A DNA stretch of 64,000 nucleotides from Streptacidiphilus neutrinimicus (GTDB lineage: Bacteria > Actinomycetota > Actinomycetes > Streptomycetales > Streptomycetaceae). The stretch lies in assembly GCF_000787815.1 (NCBI RefSeq), contig NZ_BBPO01000002.1:91127-155126 (forward strand), read 5' to 3'. This document shows positions 1,999 through 35,742 of this stretch, in pieces (within the stretch, counting starts at the first letter, position 1; every line of letters begins with the position of its first letter). The position numbers and the translations under genes are program-made. A model generated the notes under the pieces. That model was not told the DNA's origin. It saw only the letters and a list, made by a program, of their open reading frames with translations, and did not search any database.

Positions 1999-2978
1999 CC
2001 CACCACCGGACGAGCGACGCACCGCGCCTGCTGCGCGCCGCCCTGCTCGCCTACCCCAGGACCTCCCGGGCGGCCCATGCGCAGGAGCTGACGGCCATCT
2101 TCGCCGAGGCCACGGGCGGTGCGGGCCGGATCGCCACGCTCCGCGAGGCTGTGGACGTCGCCGGGCACGGACTGCGGCTGCGCGGCGGACTGGGCGGCCC
2201 GGGCCGCGCCGACGAGGTCGTGGCCCGGGCGGCCCCCGCGGCGGTCGCCCTGTGCGCGGCCCAGGGCGTCGCCTACGTCGTGGCGTTGGGCGTCATGCTG
2301 CTCGACCCACCTCAGTTCCGGGGGCTGGGGACGGCCTACGCCCTTGTGCTGGGCGACGCCGTCGGCGCGACCGTCGTCTGGCTGGGCGTCGTCGCCCTGC
2401 TGCTGCTCGGCCGCTGGGGAGGTGCGCGGATCCTGGGAGCGCTCGGCACGGCCGCTCAGGTGCCCGTGGTGCTCGCGGCCCTGCCCGGCCTCCAGATGGA
2501 CCGCACCTACGCGGTGTGCCAGGCGCTGCTCCCGTCCCTGTTCGTCGCGGCGCTGCTGCTTGCCGTGCCGCGCGACCTGACGGGGCCGCTGGGGCCGCGC
2601 GACCGCTCCGCGATGGGCTGGGCGGTCCTGTCCGCCCTGGTGCTCGACGCGCTCATGTTCGTGGTCGAACTCCCCTACGTGACCGGGATCCTCATCAGCT
2701 TCGTCTGGTTCGTGCCGGTCGCCTGGGCGCTGCTGCGGGTCCGCCGGGACGCCACGGGCCCGGCCGCCCTCGCCCTGACGGCGGTCGTCGGCCTGCTGCG
2801 CTTCGGCGTGCCGATGCTGGCCCAGCTGACCTCGCCGCGGGAGGTCGCCGCAGCCGCCGTCGTCCTGGCCGCCGTGGCCTTCGCCTGGCGGCGCCGGTCT
2901 CTCCGCAACGCGGAACGGCCGCGTCCTTCCCGATCCACTGGACCGAGCCGACCCTCGAGTGATCTCCACCACCCGTGA
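1995..2978 (+). CDS. multi-pass membrane protein, PadR partner
   Basis: A 327-aa protein with a soluble N-terminus of about 70 residues (LLRAALLAYPRTSRAAHAQEL), then roughly seven to eight hydrophobic segments, and a short basic C-terminus. The YPRxxR...HAxEL pattern at the N-terminus is seen in membrane proteins encoded next to PadR regulators in actinomycetes, sometimes called a permease prefix. The GTG start overlaps the padR stop by 4 bases, so translation is coupled. No catalytic motif is visible and no function is claimed. A role in drug, lipid or signal sensing under PadR control is only suggested by context. Confidence 0.75.
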   Translation: MTHHRTSDAPRLLRAALLAYPRTSRAAHAQELTAIFAEATGGAGRIATLREAVDVAGHGLRLRGGLGGPGRADEVVARAAPAAVALCAAQGVAYVVALGVMLLDPPQFRGLGTAYALVLGDAVGATVVWLGVVALLLLGRWGGARILGALGTAAQVPVVLAALPGLQMDRTYAVCQALLPSLFVAALLLAVPRDLTGPLGPRDRSAMGWAVLSALVLDALMFVVELPYVTGILISFVWFVPVAWALLRVRRDATGPAALALTAVVGLLRFGVPMLAQLTSPREVAAAAVVLAAVAFAWRRRSLRNAERPRPSRSTGPSRPSSDLHHP

Positions 2979-3207
2979 ACAGTACGAGCTGGTCGAGCGG
3001 GACCGCTTGATCAGCCGTCAGGTGGTGGCGGAGCTGTACGGCCTCCCGGTGGCGGACGCCGGCGAGCCGATCTTCTCGAATCCGGCCCGCGCCGTGAAGG
3101 TCAACCTGCGCCGACCGCTGCCGTCGGGGAACGTAGGCGAGACGGACGTCTACGGCGTGCAGCAGCACGGCCCCCTGCTCGCGCTGCGCCTGCCGCTCCC
3201 GGAGTAG
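2959..3207 (+). CDS. small conserved-looking hypothetical protein
   Basis: An 82-aa open frame starting with GTG inside the last codons of the preceding gene (20-base overlap). Codon third positions are almost all G/C, which supports real coding. The protein is soluble and has no cysteine motif or membrane segment. Recognisable strings are ELVERDRLISRQVVAELYGL and IFSNPARAVKVNLRRPLPSG. I do not recognise the family. The overlap suggests co-transcription with the PadR unit, though it could be independent. Confidence 0.55.
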   Translation: MISTTREQYELVERDRLISRQVVAELYGLPVADAGEPIFSNPARAVKVNLRRPLPSGNVGETDVYGVQQHGPLLALRLPLPE

Positions 3208-3268
3208 GGCACGCCCGCGTCGTAGGGTGGGCCGGGTGAGTGCACGAACCGGCCCGGGGGTGCTGCGG

Positions 3269-4231
3269 ATGCGGATACGACGGACGGGCGCGGCCGCGGC
3301 CGCCGCCCTGCTGTGCGCCGGGCTCGCTGGGTGCGGCGGCTCCGACCGGCCCGCGACGCCGGCCTCGTCGAACCGGCCCGTGCTGGTCGGCTCCGGCCCC
3401 TCTTCGCCGTCGTCCCGGCCCTCGCCCTCGGCGACGCCGCTCGCGTCCGGGCCCTACGTCGCCCTCGGCGACTCGTACACGGCCGGGCCGGGCATCCCCG
3501 CGCGGACCGGCGTCCCGCTCGGCTGCGACCGGTCCAGCCAGGCCTACCCGGCCCTGCTCGCCGCGCGCCTGCACCTGAGCGCGGCCCAGTTCCGAGACGT
3601 GAGCTGCAGCGGCGCGCGGATCGCCGACCTGGACGGCGAGCAGTCCACCTCCGACGGCGTCAATCCGGCCCAGCTCTCCGCGCTCTCGTCGTCCACCCGG
3701 CTGGTCACCCTCGGCATCGGCGGCAACGACATCGGCTTCGCGGACCTGGTCGAGCGCTGCGTCGCCGCCGGGCTGCTGCGGCAGACGCCCTGCCGCGAGC
3801 AGCTGACCGCAGGCGGCGACAGCGTCGAGGCGCGGATCCGCACGGCGGGGGAGCAGCTCGCGGTCGCCCTGGCCGCGATCCACCGCCGGGCCCCGCAGGC
3901 GCGCGTCTACGTCGTCGGCTACCCGGCGATCCTCCCGGCCGACGGCGGGGTCTGCGCCTCGGGCCTCGCGATGACGGTCGACGACGTGGCGTACCTGCGG
4001 GTCAAGGAGCAGCATCTGAACGCGATGCTGCGGAAGCGCTCCGAGGCCGCCGGTGTGCGCTTCGTGGACACCTGGACGCCCTCGCTCGGCCACGACGCCT
4101 GTGAGACGGCGGGAACCCGGTGGATCGAGCCGCTGTTGCCGAGCGCCCCGGCGGCCGCATTGCACCCCAACGCCCGTGGTGAACAGGGCATGGCGGAGGC
4201 GGTCCTGGCAACGCTGGGTGACGATTCCTGA
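3269..4231 (+). CDS. SGNH/GDSL-type lipase/esterase lipoprotein
   Basis: A 320-aa exported esterase. The ATG at 3269 gives a clean lipoprotein signal peptide (MRIRR, hydrophobic Ala-rich core, lipobox LAGC with Cys22). A Ser/Pro-rich linker to about residue 58 follows. The SGNH blocks are all present: ALGDSYTAG (nucleophile Ser) near residue 65, SCSGA, GIGGNDIGF (oxyanion Gly and Asn), and the terminal LHPNARGEQ supplying the catalytic His. The layout matches Streptomyces secreted SGNH lipases related to S. rimosus lipase. GTG codons further upstream (3227, 3236) are in frame but would spoil the signal peptide. Expected on the outer face of the membrane; substrate unknown. A short hairpin with a T-run follows the stop. 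Confidence 0.85.
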   Translation: MRIRRTGAAAAAALLCAGLAGCGGSDRPATPASSNRPVLVGSGPSSPSSRPSPSATPLASGPYVALGDSYTAGPGIPARTGVPLGCDRSSQAYPALLAARLHLSAAQFRDVSCSGARIADLDGEQSTSDGVNPAQLSALSSSTRLVTLGIGGNDIGFADLVERCVAAGLLRQTPCREQLTAGGDSVEARIRTAGEQLAVALAAIHRRAPQARVYVVGYPAILPADGGVCASGLAMTVDDVAYLRVKEQHLNAMLRKRSEAAGVRFVDTWTPSLGHDACETAGTRWIEPLLPSAPAAALHPNARGEQGMAEAVLATLGDDS

Positions 4232-4264
4232 AAACTCCCTGGGAGTCGTCGAACTGATTTGCGG

Positions 4265-4282
4265 CCCCTCATCAGGGGTTTT
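4265..4282 (+). terminator. short intrinsic terminator after the SGNH lipase gene
   Basis: CCCCT-CATC-AGGGG forms a 5-bp stem with a 4-base loop, directly followed by TTTT. It lies 33 bases after the lipase stop codon. The stem is short, so the terminator may be weak. Confidence 0.5.
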
Positions 4283-4312
4283 ACGTACAGGTGACCGAGT
4301 TGTGTGCGTCTC

Positions 4313-4347
4313 CTCTGAAAATCCTCAGAGCTTCTGTTGACGCGTCA
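4313..4347 (+). other. hairpin and palindrome in the long leader of the sedolisin gene
   Basis: The 292-base gap between the lipase and the sedolisin holds two symmetrical elements besides the terminator. CTCTGA-AAATCC-TCAGAG is a 6-bp hairpin (4313-4330), and TGACGCGTCA is a perfect 10-bp palindrome (4338-4347). The palindrome lies about 180 bases upstream of the protease start and could be an operator. No convincing -10/-35 pair was found, so the promoter is unplaced. Confidence 0.35.
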
Positions 4348-4523
4348 GATGACGCACTGCTTGTCTTGGGCGCAGCAAGGCACACCCCCACCTTGTGGTG
4401 TCATAAATCCCTGTCCGCCCTGGTTACGACATGCCGCTCAGCAGGTCCTCGCTTGGCATGCTCACGACACTCTGCTGCCTACCGGCAACAGGGCGGCCGA
4501 CCCCGAAAGGACCCCGCAACCCC

Positions 4524-5795
4524 ATGGGCAAGGGATCTGTTTCGCATCGGAAGACGACGGCCATCGGCATCGCCGTGGTCGCCCTCATCGGCGGCGCAGC
4601 CGCCATAGCCGCACCCGCGACCGCGAGTTCGGTGCCGATACAGCCGGCGGCTGCCAGCGCGGCCGGCCACCACGCGCATGCCCGGCACCTCTGCGGCGCT
4701 CCCAAGAAGGCCCGCATGATGTCCTGCCTGGCGGAGGTGCGCACCGACGTCGCGCAGCCGCACGTCTTCGCCGCGCACGCCGTCTCCGCCGCCGCCACCC
4801 CCTCCGGCTACGGCCCCGGCGACCTGCTCAGCGCCTACAACCTGCCCGCCGACGGCGGCGCGGGCCAGACGGTGGCCATCGTGGACGCCCAGGACGACCC
4901 GAACGCCGAGTCCGACCTGGCGACCTACCGCAGCCAGTACGGCCTGCCGGCCTGCACCAGCGACAACGGCTGCTTCAGCAAGGTCGACGAGAACGGCGGC
5001 ACCAACTACCCGAGCGCGGACTCGGGTTGGGCCGGGGAGATCTCCCTCGACCTCGACATGGTCTCCGCGATCGCGCCCGAGGCGCACATCGTCCTCGTCG
5101 AGGCCAACTCGGCGAACATGAGCGACCTGGGCACCGCCGTCAACCAGGCGGTCTCGATGGGCGCGAAGTTCGTCTCCAACAGCTACGGCGGCTCCGAGGA
5201 CTCCTCCGACCTGTCCGCCGACAACAGCTACTTCAACCACCCCGGCGTCGCCATCACCGTCTCGGCCGGCGACTCCGCCTACGGCGCGGAGTACCCGGCG
5301 TCGAGCCAGTACGTGACCTCCGTGGGCGGCACCTCTCTCACCAAGGACTCCAGCGGCCGCGGTTGGAGCGAGAGCGTCTGGTCGACCTCCAGCACCGAGG
5401 GCACCGGCTCGGGCTGCTCGGCCTACGAGCCGAAGCCCAGCTGGCAGACCGACACCGGCTGCTCCAACCGCACCGTCGCCGACGTCTCCGCCGTCGCGGA
5501 CCCGGCCACCGGCGTCGCGGTCTACGACAGCTACGGCGCCTCCGGTTGGCAGGTCTACGGCGGCACCAGCGCCGCGTCGCCGATCATCGCGGGCGTCTAC
5601 GCCGACGCGGGCGCCCCGGGCGCCAACGACTACCCGGCGCAGTACCCGTATCTGCACACCGACGCGCTCAACGACGTCACCAGCGGCAGCAACGGCACCT
5701 GCGACCCGTCCTACCTGTGCACCGCCGGCACCGGCTACGACGGCCCGACCGGCCTCGGCACCCCGAACGGCCTGACCGCCTTCACGGCGGGCTGA
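4524..5795 (+). CDS. secreted sedolisin-like serine-carboxyl peptidase (S53)
   Basis: A 423-aa exported peptidase. The ATG at 4524 follows the ribosome binding site GAAAGGA and gives a signal peptide (basic N-terminus, hydrophobic core to about residue 35). Sedolisin active-site residues are visible: Glu172 and Asp176 in GEISLDLD, the oxyanion Asp250 in SAGDSAYG, and the nucleophile Ser349 in GGTSAASP. A C-terminal TGYDGPTGLGTPNG loop matches the calcium site. Only about 60 residues lie between the signal peptide and the catalytic domain (start near 95), so the usual large activation propeptide is missing or replaced by a short Cys-containing segment. S53 enzymes work at acidic pH. It stands alone and is followed by a strong terminator. 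Probable role: extracellular protein degradation. Confidence 0.9.
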   Translation: MGKGSVSHRKTTAIGIAVVALIGGAAAIAAPATASSVPIQPAAASAAGHHAHARHLCGAPKKARMMSCLAEVRTDVAQPHVFAAHAVSAAATPSGYGPGDLLSAYNLPADGGAGQTVAIVDAQDDPNAESDLATYRSQYGLPACTSDNGCFSKVDENGGTNYPSADSGWAGEISLDLDMVSAIAPEAHIVLVEANSANMSDLGTAVNQAVSMGAKFVSNSYGGSEDSSDLSADNSYFNHPGVAITVSAGDSAYGAEYPASSQYVTSVGGTSLTKDSSGRGWSESVWSTSSTEGTGSGCSAYEPKPSWQTDTGCSNRTVADVSAVADPATGVAVYDSYGASGWQVYGGTSAASPIIAGVYADAGAPGANDYPAQYPYLHTDALNDVTSGSNGTCDPSYLCTAGTGYDGPTGLGTPNGLTAFTAG

Positions 5796-31318: not shown

Positions 31319-32284
31319 TCAGCCGTTGTTCGCGAGGTCGGCGATCGTGACCAGGTGGTACTTGTCTGCCGTCGCCTTGGTGACCACGATCGCGTCCTTG
31401 TCCTGGGCGGAGGACTGGCCGAGGACGGTCAGCGGAGCCGGAACGGCCTTCTGCAGCGCCGCGTAGACGTCGGCGGACGAGACCGCGGTGGCCTTGGGGT
31501 CGAAGTACACCAGCAGCGCGCCGCTGTACTCGGGGATCAGGTCGATCGAGCCGTCCTTCAGGCCCGGGACGTAGGTCTCGCGGCTGCCGATGTTCAAGCG
31601 GGTGGTGACGCTGGCCCCCTGGGCCTGCAGCGCCTTCGCGTAGATCTCCGCGAGCAGGACGCTCTCCTGGAAGTTCGCCGAGCCGATCTTGACGGAGACG
31701 CCCTGCGCCGCCGTGCCGGTCTTGTTGAGGCCCTCCGCGGCCAGCCAGCCCTCGGCGACGGCAGCCGGGTCCTGCTTGTCGGTGATGACGTGGACGTCGA
31801 GCTGGGCCAGCGTGTTGGTGTCGAGCTTGTCCGAGACCGCCTTGAGGGTGGAGGTGACGCCCGGCGACGCCTTCGCCTTGTTGATCAGCGGCAGCACGTT
31901 CTGCGCGGCGTAGAGGTTCTTCGGGTCCTGCAGCACGACGAAGCCGTTCGCCGGGATCGAGGGGTCGGTGGTGAAGATGTCGCCCGCGTCGATCTGACCG
32001 TTCTTCAGCGCGTTGATGGTCAGCGGGCCGCCGGCGTCGAGGGTCTTGTAGGAGCCGAAGGTGACGCCGTAGACGCGCTCGAGGCCGGGGATGCCGTCCG
32101 TGCGGGTCTTGAACTCAGGCGAGCCGCCCAGGACCAGCTTCGAGGCGATGGTCGTGCCGCCGCCCGACGCGCTGCTGCCGCCGCTGGCCGAGAGTCCGTT
32201 CGAGCCGCTGCTGCCACTGCTGCCGCAGGCGGCGAGCGCCGTCGCGCAGACCGCGACGAGGGCTGACGTGAGTGCCTTCTTCAT
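31319..32284 (-). CDS. opuCC: glycine-betaine/choline-type substrate-binding lipoprotein, circularly permuted (OpuCC-like)
   Basis: A 321-aa lipoprotein (lipobox LAAC, Cys20). In ordinary OpuCC/ProX/OsmF proteins the block VxIGSxxFxES...GSRExYVP...IDLxPEYxGALL comes first, and the block EFKTRxDGxPGLExxYGxxF...DAGGPLTxxALKNGQxDxxxxFTTDP comes second. Here the order is reversed: residues 49-187 carry the canonical second block (through DPAAVAEGWLAAEGL) and residues 198-321 the canonical first block, ending at VTIADLANNG. The old termini are joined by a short linker, LNKTGTAAQGVS. Frame and codon use are normal throughout. AGGAGA lies 8 bases before the ATG. It would capture betaine or a related osmolyte for the permeases encoded upstream. 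Confidence 0.9.
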   Translation of the reverse strand: MKKALTSALVAVCATALAACGSSGSSGSNGLSASGGSSASGGGTTIASKLVLGGSPEFKTRTDGIPGLERVYGVTFGSYKTLDAGGPLTINALKNGQIDAGDIFTTDPSIPANGFVVLQDPKNLYAAQNVLPLINKAKASPGVTSTLKAVSDKLDTNTLAQLDVHVITDKQDPAAVAEGWLAAEGLNKTGTAAQGVSVKIGSANFQESVLLAEIYAKALQAQGASVTTRLNIGSRETYVPGLKDGSIDLIPEYSGALLVYFDPKATAVSSADVYAALQKAVPAPLTVLGQSSAQDKDAIVVTKATADKYHLVTIADLANNG

Positions 32285-32355: not shown

Positions 32356-33096
32356 TCACGCGGTGTGCGTGGACGGCGGCGCGTCGGCCGTGGCGACCGG
32401 GTCGCCGACGAGCGTCCGCCGCGAGAAGCGGCCGGAGACGCCGCGCGAGACCGTGTAGCGCTGGGCGAGTGCCAGCACCAGGTCCGCGGCGACCGCGAGC
32501 ATCGCGACCAGCAGCGCGCCCGCGTCCCGCTCGGCGAAGTTCTGGCTGGCCTGGCCGTCGTAGACGAAGCGGCCGAGGCCGCCGAGGCCCAGGTAGGCGG
32601 CGACCGTGGCCGTCGCGATGACCTGCAGCGTCGCGCTGCGCACCCCGGAGAAGACCAGGGGCAGCGCGTTCGGCAGCTCGACCCGGCGCACCACCTGACC
32701 GCCGCGCATGCCCATCCCGGCCGCCGCGTCCCGCACGGCCGGGTCCACGTTCTCGACGCCGGCGACGGTGCTGGCCAGGATCGGCGGGATCGCCAGCAGG
32801 ATCAGCACGATCTCCGTCGGCAGGAGGTAGACGGTGTCGCCCCGGCCGTGGATGTGCGGGGCCAGCATCACGTAGAGCAGGATCAGCAGCCCGACCACCG
32901 GCAGCGCGCGCACGGCGTTGGCGACGGTGACCAGCCACCGGCCGCGCCCGGCGTGTCCGATCAGCAGCCCGACGGGCAGGGCCAGGGCGGTGGCGACGAC
33001 CAGCGCGAACAGTGCGTACTGCAGGTGCGACCAGAGCTGGTCCAGGATGCCGCCCGAGGCGGTCCAGTTCCCCGGGTCGTTGAGCCACTGGATCAC
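32356..33096 (-). CDS. opuCD: compatible-solute ABC permease (OpuCD/OpuCB-like)
   Basis: A 246-aa permease with five to six membrane segments. The BPD_transp_1 coupling motif reads DAAAGMGMRGGQVVRRVELPNALPL near residues 128-152. The GTG start overlaps the stop of the neighbouring permease gene (GTGA). It forms the second half of the channel of the quaternary-amine importer. Confidence 0.9.
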   Translation of the reverse strand: MIQWLNDPGNWTASGGILDQLWSHLQYALFALVVATALALPVGLLIGHAGRGRWLVTVANAVRALPVVGLLILLYVMLAPHIHGRGDTVYLLPTEIVLILLAIPPILASTVAGVENVDPAVRDAAAGMGMRGGQVVRRVELPNALPLVFSGVRSATLQVIATATVAAYLGLGGLGRFVYDGQASQNFAERDAGALLVAMLAVAADLVLALAQRYTVSRGVSGRFSRRTLVGDPVATADAPPSTHTA

Positions 33097-33848
33097 GAGC
33101 CGCTCACCGCCCGCCGCCACGGGGTCGCCAGCCAGGTGCCGCCGACCACCAGCAGGTCCAGCGCCAGCGCCAGCAGCACGCACAGCACGATCCCGAGGGT
33201 GATCGGCGGGTAGTAGGGGCTGCCGACCGAGAGCTGGAAGCCGGTGGTGAACAACTGGCCGAGGTTGGGCACGCCGATGGTGCCGGCCACGGCCACCAGG
33301 CTGACGTTGGCGACGACCGCGACGCGCACGCCTGCCGCGATCACCGGCACGGCCAGTGGCAGCTCCACCTTCAGCAGCCGTTGACGCCGGGTCAGGCCCA
33401 TCGCCGTCGCCGCCTGCGCGACGTCGTCCGGCACCGCGCCCAGCCCGTCGGCCACGACGCGGACCAGCAGGGCGACGCTGTAGACGGTGAGGGCGACCGC
33501 GACGTTGATCGGGTCGAGGATCTGGGTGCCGAGGATGTCCGGCATCGCCACGAACAGCGCGATGGACGGGATCGTGTAGAGCAGTCCGGCCGCGGTGACC
33601 AGCGGCGGGTAGGTCCACCGGTAGCGGCGCGCCACCCAGCCGAGCGGGAGCGCGATCAGCAGCCCGGCCACCACCGGGACCGCGGAGAGCCAGGTGTGGT
33701 ACCAGAGCCAGTTGAGCACCTCGTCGCGGTGGTCGTTGAAGTACCCGAACATGCCGAGCGGCGAGGAGTCCTGGGCCAGCGGTGCGACGGGCGGCAAGAC
33801 GCGCGGGGCTACCCCCGGCGAGACGTGCGGGGAGACAGGGGACGGCAT
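33093..33848 (-). CDS. opuCB: compatible-solute ABC permease (OpuCB-like)
   Basis: A 251-aa permease with five to six segments after a Pro/Val-rich N-terminus of about 30 residues. The coupling motif is QAATAMGLTRRQRLLKVELPLAVPV near residues 148-172. YTIPSIALFVAMP is a typical OpuCB string. The ATG overlaps the ATPase stop by one base (TGATG). It pairs with the following permease. Confidence 0.9.
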   Translation of the reverse strand: MPSPVSPHVSPGVAPRVLPPVAPLAQDSSPLGMFGYFNDHRDEVLNWLWYHTWLSAVPVVAGLLIALPLGWVARRYRWTYPPLVTAAGLLYTIPSIALFVAMPDILGTQILDPINVAVALTVYSVALLVRVVADGLGAVPDDVAQAATAMGLTRRQRLLKVELPLAVPVIAAGVRVAVVANVSLVAVAGTIGVPNLGQLFTTGFQLSVGSPYYPPITLGIVLCVLLALALDLLVVGGTWLATPWRRAVSGS

Positions 33849-35038
33849 CAGACGACCTCACCGCCCTCCCCGTCGTCCCGCCCGACGTCGGTCTCGGCGT
33901 CGAGCCCGGCGTCGCGCGCCGGCGGTCGGCCGTCCGCGACGCGCTGCTGCTCGATCCGGGTGAGCACCTCGGACGCGGTGACGGTGCCGAGCAGTCGACC
34001 CGCGCCGTCGACGATCACCCCCCGACCGCTGGGGGAGGAGAGCGCGGAGTCCAGGGCCTCACGCAGGGTCGCCGTCTCGGGGGCGAGCGTGCCGCCGAGG
34101 TTCAGCTCCTGTGCGGTGACCGGGCCTGGCAGCGCCGCCTCCGGCAGCCGGTCGGTGCGCAGCCAGCCCTGCGGCCGGTCCTCGGCGTCGGTCACCAGCA
34201 CCCAGCCGTCCTCGGCCGCGTCGCGGGCCTCACCCAGCCCGCCGCCGAGACGCACGGCGTGCTCCTTGCGCACCGGCAGCCGTCCCGCCTCGGCGAACCC
34301 GAGCGCGCGGTAGCCGCGGTCGCGCCCGACGAACCCGGCCACGAAGGCGTCCGATGGATCCGAAAGCAACTCGGCGGGCGGCGCCAACTGCGCCAGGTGC
34401 CCGCCGACCTGGAGCACGGCGACCCGGTCGCCGAGCTTGATGGCCTCGTCGATGTCGTGAGTGACGAACACGATCGTCTTGCCCAGCTCGCCCTGCAGCC
34501 GCAGGAACTCGTTCTGCAGCTGCGCGCGTACGACCGGGTCGACGGCGCTGAACGGCTCGTCCATCAGCATCACCGGCGGGTCCGCGGCCAGCGCCCGCGC
34601 GACGCCGACGCGCTGCTGCTGCCCGCCGGACAGCTGCGCGGGGTAGCGCTTGGCGAAGTGGGCGGGCAGCCCGACCCGCTCCATCAGCTCCAGCGCTCTG
34701 CGGCGGGTCTCCTTCTTGTCGCGGCCGAGCAGCTCGGGCACGGTCGTGATGTTGTCCAGCACGGTCCTGTGCGGGAACAGCCCGGCGTGCTGGATGACGT
34801 ACCCGATACCGCGCCGCAGCTCGTGGGTGGGCACGGTGGCGGTGTCGCGGTCGTCGAGCCAGATCCGCCCGCTCGTCGGCTCGATCATCCGGTTGATCAT
34901 CCGCAGGCTGGTGGTCTTCCCGCAGCCCGAGGGCCCGACGAGCACGGTGATCTCCCCCGACGGTGCGACCAGCTCCAGGCGGTCGACTGCGAGCGTGCCG
35001 TCGGGGTACTTCTTGCTGACGGACTCGAACCGGATCAC
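33848..35038 (-). CDS. opuCA: compatible-solute ABC ATPase with C-terminal CBS pair (OpuCA-like)
   Basis: A 396-aa ATPase. Walker A GPSGCGKTT near residue 33, signature LSGGQQQRVGVARALAADPP near 136-155, Walker B MLMDEPFSAVD, H-loop FVTHD. The region after about 250 contains two CBS-like domains (GWVLVTDAEDRPQGWLRTDRL and GRGVIVDGAGRLLGTVTASE), which in OpuCA-type proteins gate transport in response to ionic strength or nucleotides. I chose the GTG at 35038 because GGGGG precedes it and similarity begins there; an in-frame codon at 35155 adds 39 unlike residues. First gene of the opuC operon. Confidence 0.92.
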   Translation of the reverse strand: MIRFESVSKKYPDGTLAVDRLELVAPSGEITVLVGPSGCGKTTSLRMINRMIEPTSGRIWLDDRDTATVPTHELRRGIGYVIQHAGLFPHRTVLDNITTVPELLGRDKKETRRRALELMERVGLPAHFAKRYPAQLSGGQQQRVGVARALAADPPVMLMDEPFSAVDPVVRAQLQNEFLRLQGELGKTIVFVTHDIDEAIKLGDRVAVLQVGGHLAQLAPPAELLSDPSDAFVAGFVGRDRGYRALGFAEAGRLPVRKEHAVRLGGGLGEARDAAEDGWVLVTDAEDRPQGWLRTDRLPEAALPGPVTAQELNLGGTLAPETATLREALDSALSSPSGRGVIVDGAGRLLGTVTASEVLTRIEQQRVADGRPPARDAGLDAETDVGRDDGEGGEVV

Positions 35039-35075
35039 GAGGCCGCCCCCCTTTCCCTTTCGGCCGGAGACACGT

Positions 35076-35098
35076 GCGGACACCATCGAACTGTCCGC
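35076..35098. promoter_or_regulatory. inverted repeat upstream of the opuC operon
   Basis: GCGGACA and TGTCCGC are separated by 9 bases, 38 bases upstream of the opuCA start codon. It may be an operator or a transcript hairpin. No regulator gene is adjacent, and the promoter boxes are not clear. Confidence 0.35.
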
Positions 35099-35248
35099 GA
35101 CCTCGTCAGCGCGGGCGGCGCGCTGGTGGATGTAGGCCGGACGGGTGAAGCGCACGCCAGGAAAACCGGAGGAGAGGGCGTTGCGGCCTGCGGCACGCTG
35201 GTACCGGTTAACCCCGCGCTCGGCTACGACGTGGTGGAGTGCTCGGGC

Positions 35249-35605
35249 TCAGTCGAGTGGCTGTTCGGGCGCCAGCAGGTGGGAGAGGTCCTTGACGATG
35301 TTGTTGCCCAGGTTCTGCGCGTTGAGGTCGGTGGCCGGGGAGTTGGTCACCGACACCGCGATCGAAAGGTCCTTGCCCGGGAGGTAGGCCATGACCGCCG
35401 CGTAGCCGGAGAAGGAGGGGTTCTGGACGACCCAGCCGTTCACCACCAGCACGGAGACGCCGTAGTGGTTCTCCTCGGTCTGCGGCAGGCAGACCGTCGC
35501 CGGGCACCGCTTGGTCGGCGTGCCCAGCCCGATGGTGCCCGGATCGAGCAGGGTCTTGGAGCCCTTGTACGAGAGCGTCTGCCATGTCGGCACCGTGTTC
35601 GAGAA
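35249..35605 (-). pseudogene. C-terminal remnant of a beta-lactamase-like serine hydrolase
   Basis: About 118 codons resemble the end of a class C-type serine hydrolase or D-Ala-D-Ala carboxypeptidase: NGWVVQNPSFSGYAAVMAYL, where the Ser-Gly-Tyr replaces the third active-site motif, then GKDLSIAVSVTNSPATDLNA. The nucleophile motif (SxxK) and the second motif (YxN) are missing. The upstream codons in the same frame are Arg-rich and unlike the family. It is a truncated, probably dead gene left between the opuC promoter and the SMP-30 gene. Confidence 0.7.
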
Positions 35606-35742
35606 TCGGCGCAGGACACATCCGCATCCACTCCGACGGCGGACAGCGGCGGGCGTGGAGCGGCGGGGCTCGCCCCGGGCGCTGCGGCGCGGCATGATGT
35701 GCCGCGACAGCAGTCATCCGTCCCCGGCAAGGGGGAAGCAGC

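Follow-up and report, generated by a model that had tools for sequence, protein, structure and literature searches.

The gene at positions 31319-32284 of the window, that is, of the whole 64,000-nucleotide stretch of Streptacidiphilus neutrinimicus DNA analysed here, most probably specifies a functional substrate-binding protein, anchored by a lipid and serving an ABC importer of the OpuC/OsmF type (cluster F), with a circularly permuted chain (probability of about 0.86). The half that is C-terminal in canonical relatives (half B) comes first in this protein and is followed by the half that is N-terminal in them (half A), an order hereafter called B-A, the canonical order being A-B.

Order of the halves in the permuted gene

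The permuted gene and the rest of its operon comprise the following features, all on the minus strand:

31319..32284 (-): gene (321 aa) of the circularly permuted substrate-binding lipoprotein, half B (lobe-2-rich) then half A; profile, chain and orthologue matches
32219..32284 (-): signal peptide and lipobox LAAC with Cys20, residues 1-22; sequence, leader pLDDT <50, weak match to the LptM signal-peptide model
32153..32224 (-): Ser/Gly low-complexity tether, residues 21-44; sequence, pLDDT <50 over most of it
31715..32152 (-): half B, the canonical C-terminal half, residues 45-190, with EFKTRTDG, FTTDP and AQNVLPLIN; profile and chain matches
31697..31723 (-): linker (NKTGTAAQG region, residues 188-196) that connects the original C- and N-termini; sequence and orthologue alignments
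31322..31696 (-): half A, the canonical N-terminal half, residues 197-321, with IGSANF and PEYSGAL, ending in IADLANNG; profile and chain matches
32356..33090 (-): permease 2 (BPD_transp_1); Pfam domain and synteny
33093..33848 (-): permease 1 (BPD_transp_1); Pfam domain and synteny
33848..35155 (-): ATP-binding protein (ABC_tran), whose real start probably lies further downstream than that of the ORF; Pfam domain and synteny

On translation, the gene gives 321 amino acids with zero internal stops. The Pfam profile PF04069 (OpuAC) matches the protein at 6e-51 and 174 bits, above its curated cut-off of 21.2 bits, and does so in two stretches of exchanged order rather than in the co-linear canonical order: profile positions 113-256 correspond to residues 49-187, and positions 2 to about 111-113 to residues 197-320. 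In the NCBIfam OsmF model, positions 137-282 (of 283) match residues 49-187, the score for this equivalog (NF049931) being 87.2 bits, under its cut-off of 400. The chain of ProX from A. fulgidus (AfProX) aligns in the same fashion, its residues 133-274 with residues 45-187 and its residues 7-67 with residues 197-257.

The three references agree on a reversed half order, within an uninterrupted frame that begins with a lipoprotein signal, as had been described from the sequence. The half boundaries given at that stage (49-187 and 198-321) are accurate to within a few residues, and the normal motifs and intact operon reported with them are both borne out. The former termini meet in a join of about ten residues that contains no remnant signal peptide. 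The order ATPase-permease-permease-binding protein, with the permuted gene last, recurs at all permuted loci for which sufficient flanking sequence is available. A short ORF of the window (35249-35695), located between the ABC operon and a gene resembling strictosidine synthase, has no Pfam match, and may be a gene remnant, as it resembles the C-terminus of a serine hydrolase.

Conservation across assemblies and selection

Full-length, co-linear orthologues of the window protein at 96, 90, 88, 84 and 80% identity occur in other Streptacidiphilus genomes and in one further Streptomycetaceae genome; those at 64-68% belong to Pseudofrankia and other actinobacteria. Within the genus Streptacidiphilus, 5 of 14 genomes carry a permuted orthologue. 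The named strains that have one are Streptacidiphilus melanogenes, S. pinicola, S. jiangxiensis and Pseudofrankia, to which several metagenome-assembled genomes (MAGs) are added. The same B-A order is held in the orthologues at 96-80% and in others down to about 36-42% identity, which excludes chance.

Since the window comes from a draft genome in 184 contigs, the halves of a normal gene might have been swapped by an assembly or sequencing error. The same order is nevertheless found at 80-96% identity in five other genomes, including two assembled into 3-4 contigs (G037 and G027), and in the assemblies of S. melanogenes, S. pinicola, S. jiangxiensis and Pseudofrankia. Such an artefact is refuted by these independent assemblies, and its probability is vanishingly small.

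It is also extremely improbable that the gene is a decaying or non-functional duplicate, a permuted copy relaxed beside its canonical paralogues. Canonical paralogues are present alongside the permuted gene in the same genomes, and in the window genome PF04069 matches further genes, one of them a canonical relative on contig 110. Against decay, dN is lower than dS in all five orthologue comparisons, and well below it in the nearest pair (dN 0.017, dS 0.216, dN/dS about 0.08), the frame is intact, the operon is conserved and the motifs are kept over deep divergence. A decayed gene is rejected on dN/dS, and the window gene is, judged by these ratios, under purifying selection.

Common descent of the two halves

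The closest canonical protein, from a Pseudonocardiales MAG (L041), is 72% identical to the window protein in half A and 65% in half B. Trees built separately for half A and half B each group the window gene with L041 and with other B-A actinomycete proteins, and the identical placement implies that the halves have been inherited together. The fusion by chance of halves B and A from two different binding proteins is thus very unlikely, even if unequal partners are available, as in a Frankia operon (L047) with two adjacent canonical binding-protein genes: L041 is the closest canonical relative of both halves, and the concordant half-trees reject a two-protein chimera. Both halves are homologous to the same canonical relatives, with their order exchanged within a single open frame, and the identification of the protein as a circular permutant of an ABC-importer substrate-binding protein stands.

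Predicted structure, hinge and lipid anchor

The AF2 model of the window protein, computed from an input alignment of 17 permuted proteins, is a confident single fold (pLDDT 89.5, pTM 0.81) in which nearly all of residues 45-321 reach at least 90 and disorder is confined to the leader and the tether. It predicts a compact two-lobed single domain, consistent with a full-length match to OpuAC. In a sequential, hence order-dependent, Foldseek comparison with the PDB, the top five matches are B. subtilis OpuAC, with TM scores of 0.61-0.63 over about 290-300 columns; the sequence relatives OpuCC, EgtUC, Lmo1422 and iAChSnFR reach only 0.36-0.42. When solved structures were searched by sequence with a profile of the permutants, no OpuA-type OpuAC chain appeared up to E = 1, nor did any structure with the B-A order within the sequence family of the window protein, all relatives matching as A-B.

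The cage residues Tyr111, 190 and 214 of AfProX correspond to positions 341, 419 and 443 of EgtUC. The two proteins also share the cage residue AfProX Tyr63/EgtUC Phe293, and in EgtUC lobe D1 comprises residues 233-331 and 445-506, lobe D2 residues 341-432, with a hinge of two strands of about 10 residues (PMC9732360). Through the shared cage residues, and with lobe boundaries that are transferred from EgtUC via AfProX by homology rather than taken from measured coordinates, we infer that D2 covers about residues 111-203 of AfProX and that the cut in the window protein, at about AfProX 133 (aligned with query residue 45), falls within D2.

The predicted counterparts of the hinge strands, residues 129-135 and 297-301, are both whole in the AF2 model, so the hinge is not severed. 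The altered hinge geometry that had been suggested is weakened accordingly by these intact strands and by a nick that would lie in lobe 2. The new termini are indeed situated between the two halves, as the preliminary description had it, although their place is some 20 residues past the first hinge strand and not at the inter-lobe hinge.

In the arrangement proposed here, the old termini, both in lobe 1, would be joined by the linker of about 10 residues, and the new termini would open in lobe 2, flanked on one side by the short helix that follows the first hinge strand and on the other by the strand with which half B begins. Lobe 1 would then be contiguous and lobe 2 divided between both ends of the chain, and the lipid anchor would shift from lobe 1 to lobe 2. 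With both inter-lobe hinge strands retained, Venus fly-trap closure and docking on unchanged permeases would be expected.

Ligand and neighbouring genes

Alignment of the pocket with AfProX pairs Arg149 with R61, Tyr190 with F104 and Tyr63 with Y253, and replaces Tyr214 by Gln128, so that the positions of the aromatic cage are only partly aromatic in the window protein. The canonical sister L041 has the same pocket residues, which argues against any obvious change of the pocket by permutation itself.

A gene for an aromatic-amino-acid lyase resembling histidine ammonia-lyase often adjoins the importer in canonical and permuted operons alike:

Permuted loci: L038 1-1101, L040 999-3164, L128 1269-2804, L129 9751-11238, L130 10187-11785
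Canonical loci: L041 872-2518, L045 1724-3481, and many Streptomycetaceae (L012, L013, L014, L019, L023, L027 and others)

An IclR regulator is found in L038, L040, L128 and L130, and a hutF-type gene in L038 and L041. Where tested, the actinobacterial lyases score well under the hutH cut-offs, and their substrate may be an amino acid of histidine-like or betaine type. A canonical relative on a plasmid adjoins hutUGIH. On plasmid pHS1 of Sodalis praecaptivus (L154, 3438-11224), a related operon is followed by genes for a lyase, a CoA transferase, a 3-hydroxyacyl-CoA dehydrogenase and an enoyl-CoA hydratase, a set suggestive of a pathway that degrades an aromatic amino acid or the betaine derived from it. 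The window itself contains no lyase or hut gene.

The compatible-solute ligand of the preliminary description is unproven, given that relatives adjoin histidine-ammonia-lyase-like and hut genes. The neighbouring lyases suggest that the imported compounds are amino acids of histidine-like or betaine type and not osmolytes, and for the window protein a quaternary amine and a histidine-type compound are both candidates.

Recurrence of permutation and further breakpoints

A scan of Actinomycetota with profiles of permuted proteins recovered B-A proteins from 12 further genomes of the phylum sample and 4 further genomes of the class sample; one Chloroflexi MAG also encodes one. By these matches, the window permutant is not unique and belongs to a family of permutants in which the search for homologues revealed two further breakpoints, named B33 and B65. 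Proteins of class B33 (6 full-length loci, all in one family) start at position 33 of half B and end at about 33. Those of class B65 are cut at about position 65 of half B; when 81 genomes of the actinobacterial family that carries them were searched, some 60 gave near-full-length matches at 49-84% identity, and the B65 order is present in 12/12 loci whose sequence was read.

The confident AF2 model of a B65 protein (pLDDT 87.7, pTM 0.81) finds its best structural matches among OpuAC-type and ProX-type proteins over only about 150-240 columns, as would be expected if its topology differs from both types. The B65 permutants L126 (5280-6281), L156, L158, L160 and L165 have extra cysteines in common, in GAGCAPVAG or GAGCAPIAG within the new N-terminal stretch and in LAxKCSG after half A; a disulfide stapling the new N-terminus is possible.

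Mapped by homology on AfProX, the three cuts lie near residues 133, 166 and 196, all in D2. All three would fall there by chance with a probability of about 0.34 cubed, or 4%, so that selection for an anchor on lobe 2 is no more than suggested.

The 138 distinct ORFs that matched show the orders A-B, B-A, B33 and B65 only, together with one gapped A and one truncated B, and the search for a tandem-duplicated intermediate found none in this set. The two best plasmid matches examined for permuted relatives are canonical, and a plasmid search with the B65 protein found no site covering 80% of it.

Direction, number and mode of the order changes

Could the B-A order be ancestral in this lineage and the canonical A-B order of its relatives derived? 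The best match of the permuted fold is a distant relative, B. subtilis OpuAC, which makes the topology old elsewhere, and canonical L041 adjoins the window clade in the tree. By sequence, however, the window protein sides with ProX, OpuCC, OsmF and EgtU, a group in which every solved member matches as A-B, its clade is nested among canonical operons in two independent trees, and holding that clade together without L041 slightly improves the likelihood. An ancestral B-A order is consequently very unlikely, and the B-A order of the window gene is best taken as derived.

A tree of A+B sequences brought into one order contains 8 order changes, of which the starred branches make at least 4 necessary for B-A alone. 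The hypothesis that all B-A proteins go back to a single origin is rejected (delta lnL 286.5, p-AU 4e-54). One origin for the window's B-A clade is compatible with the data (p 0.587), as is a shared origin of the two other B-A groups (p-AU 0.215), the latter becoming borderline when the Chloroflexi protein is included (0.045). In a tree of the ATPase and permeases, for which the rearranged gene was not used, starred branches again require at least 3 changes and the window clade is nested among canonical operons. On these tests, the B-A order arose at least twice, its count beyond two being uncertain. A cautious count comes to four events (two B-A, B33 and B65), and there were probably more.

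The most likely source of the B-A order would be a tandem duplication in frame, after which the outer halves were lost. Tandem binding-protein genes do occur, as L047 (Frankia sp. AgB1.9) shows with canonical genes at 2797-3732 and 3687-4949 in one operon. The product of the second gene shares only about 31-35% identity with the query and lies near the branch of the B65 permutants; the pair is not a direct intermediate.

A broader proposal, standing at even odds, is that the family has been permuted at least four and perhaps six or more times at three lobe-2 sites (half-B positions of about 1, 33 and 65), each event moving the anchor from lobe 1 to lobe 2 and one permutant having become standard in most genomes of an actinobacterial family. 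This would represent serial, possibly selected re-wiring, with the OpuAC topology reached convergently.

Significance and comparison with known systems

As a rule, circular permutants in nature come to notice only as old pairs that have diverged strongly. In the present case, orthologues with and without the permutation are 65-72% identical and share the same operon context, with three breakpoints in one family. With such near-matched natural pairs, it can be tested how permutation affects folding, hinge motion, anchoring and docking. The family is a natural experiment in protein re-wiring, from which DNA intermediates of permutation may come to light. Annotation is affected as well, since family profiles of linear order split or truncate permutants.

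Circular permutation among betaine-binding proteins is already published: CPSARST has related OpuAC (2B4L), E. coli ProX (1R9L) and A. fulgidus ProX (1SW1) to one another as mutual circular permutants, the glycine-betaine-binding pairs sharing <24% identity (PMC2395249). Identities this low point to an ancient event, whereas the permuted and unpermuted relatives described here share 65-72% (L041). No report of permuted OpuC/OsmF proteins was found in the open-access literature searched, and as far as that literature shows, a family linked to one operon type that was permuted recently, repeatedly and at several sites is unreported.

In its overall chain topology, the window protein resembles B. 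subtilis OpuAC (2B4L, 5NXX and 3CHG), the protein that fills the Foldseek top five. In sequence, it belongs on the ProX/OpuCC side and not with OpuA. An OpuAC topology combined with a ProX/OpuCC/OsmF-type sequence suggests that this topology was reached convergently. With the cluster F-III proteins (A. fulgidus ProX, OpuCC, OpuBC, OsmF and EgtUC), both halves are homologous, and R61, Y253 and F104 have counterparts; the window protein differs from them in its reversed order, in Gln128 in place of AfProX Tyr214 and in an anchor on the other lobe.

Treponema pallidum likewise has a tethered binding protein whose chain is naturally permuted, the 'type Ic' glucose-binding protein Tp0684/MglB-2. 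Its permuted segments share only 13% identity, and it changes conformation on ligand binding; the Tp0684 authors put forward an idea similar to lobe-2 anchoring for another fold (PMC4990184). No Tp0684-type match is among the structural matches listed by Foldseek. Tp0684 is a sugar-binding protein of cluster B, cut elsewhere and with a fourth cross-over added, whereas the window protein keeps both hinge strands.
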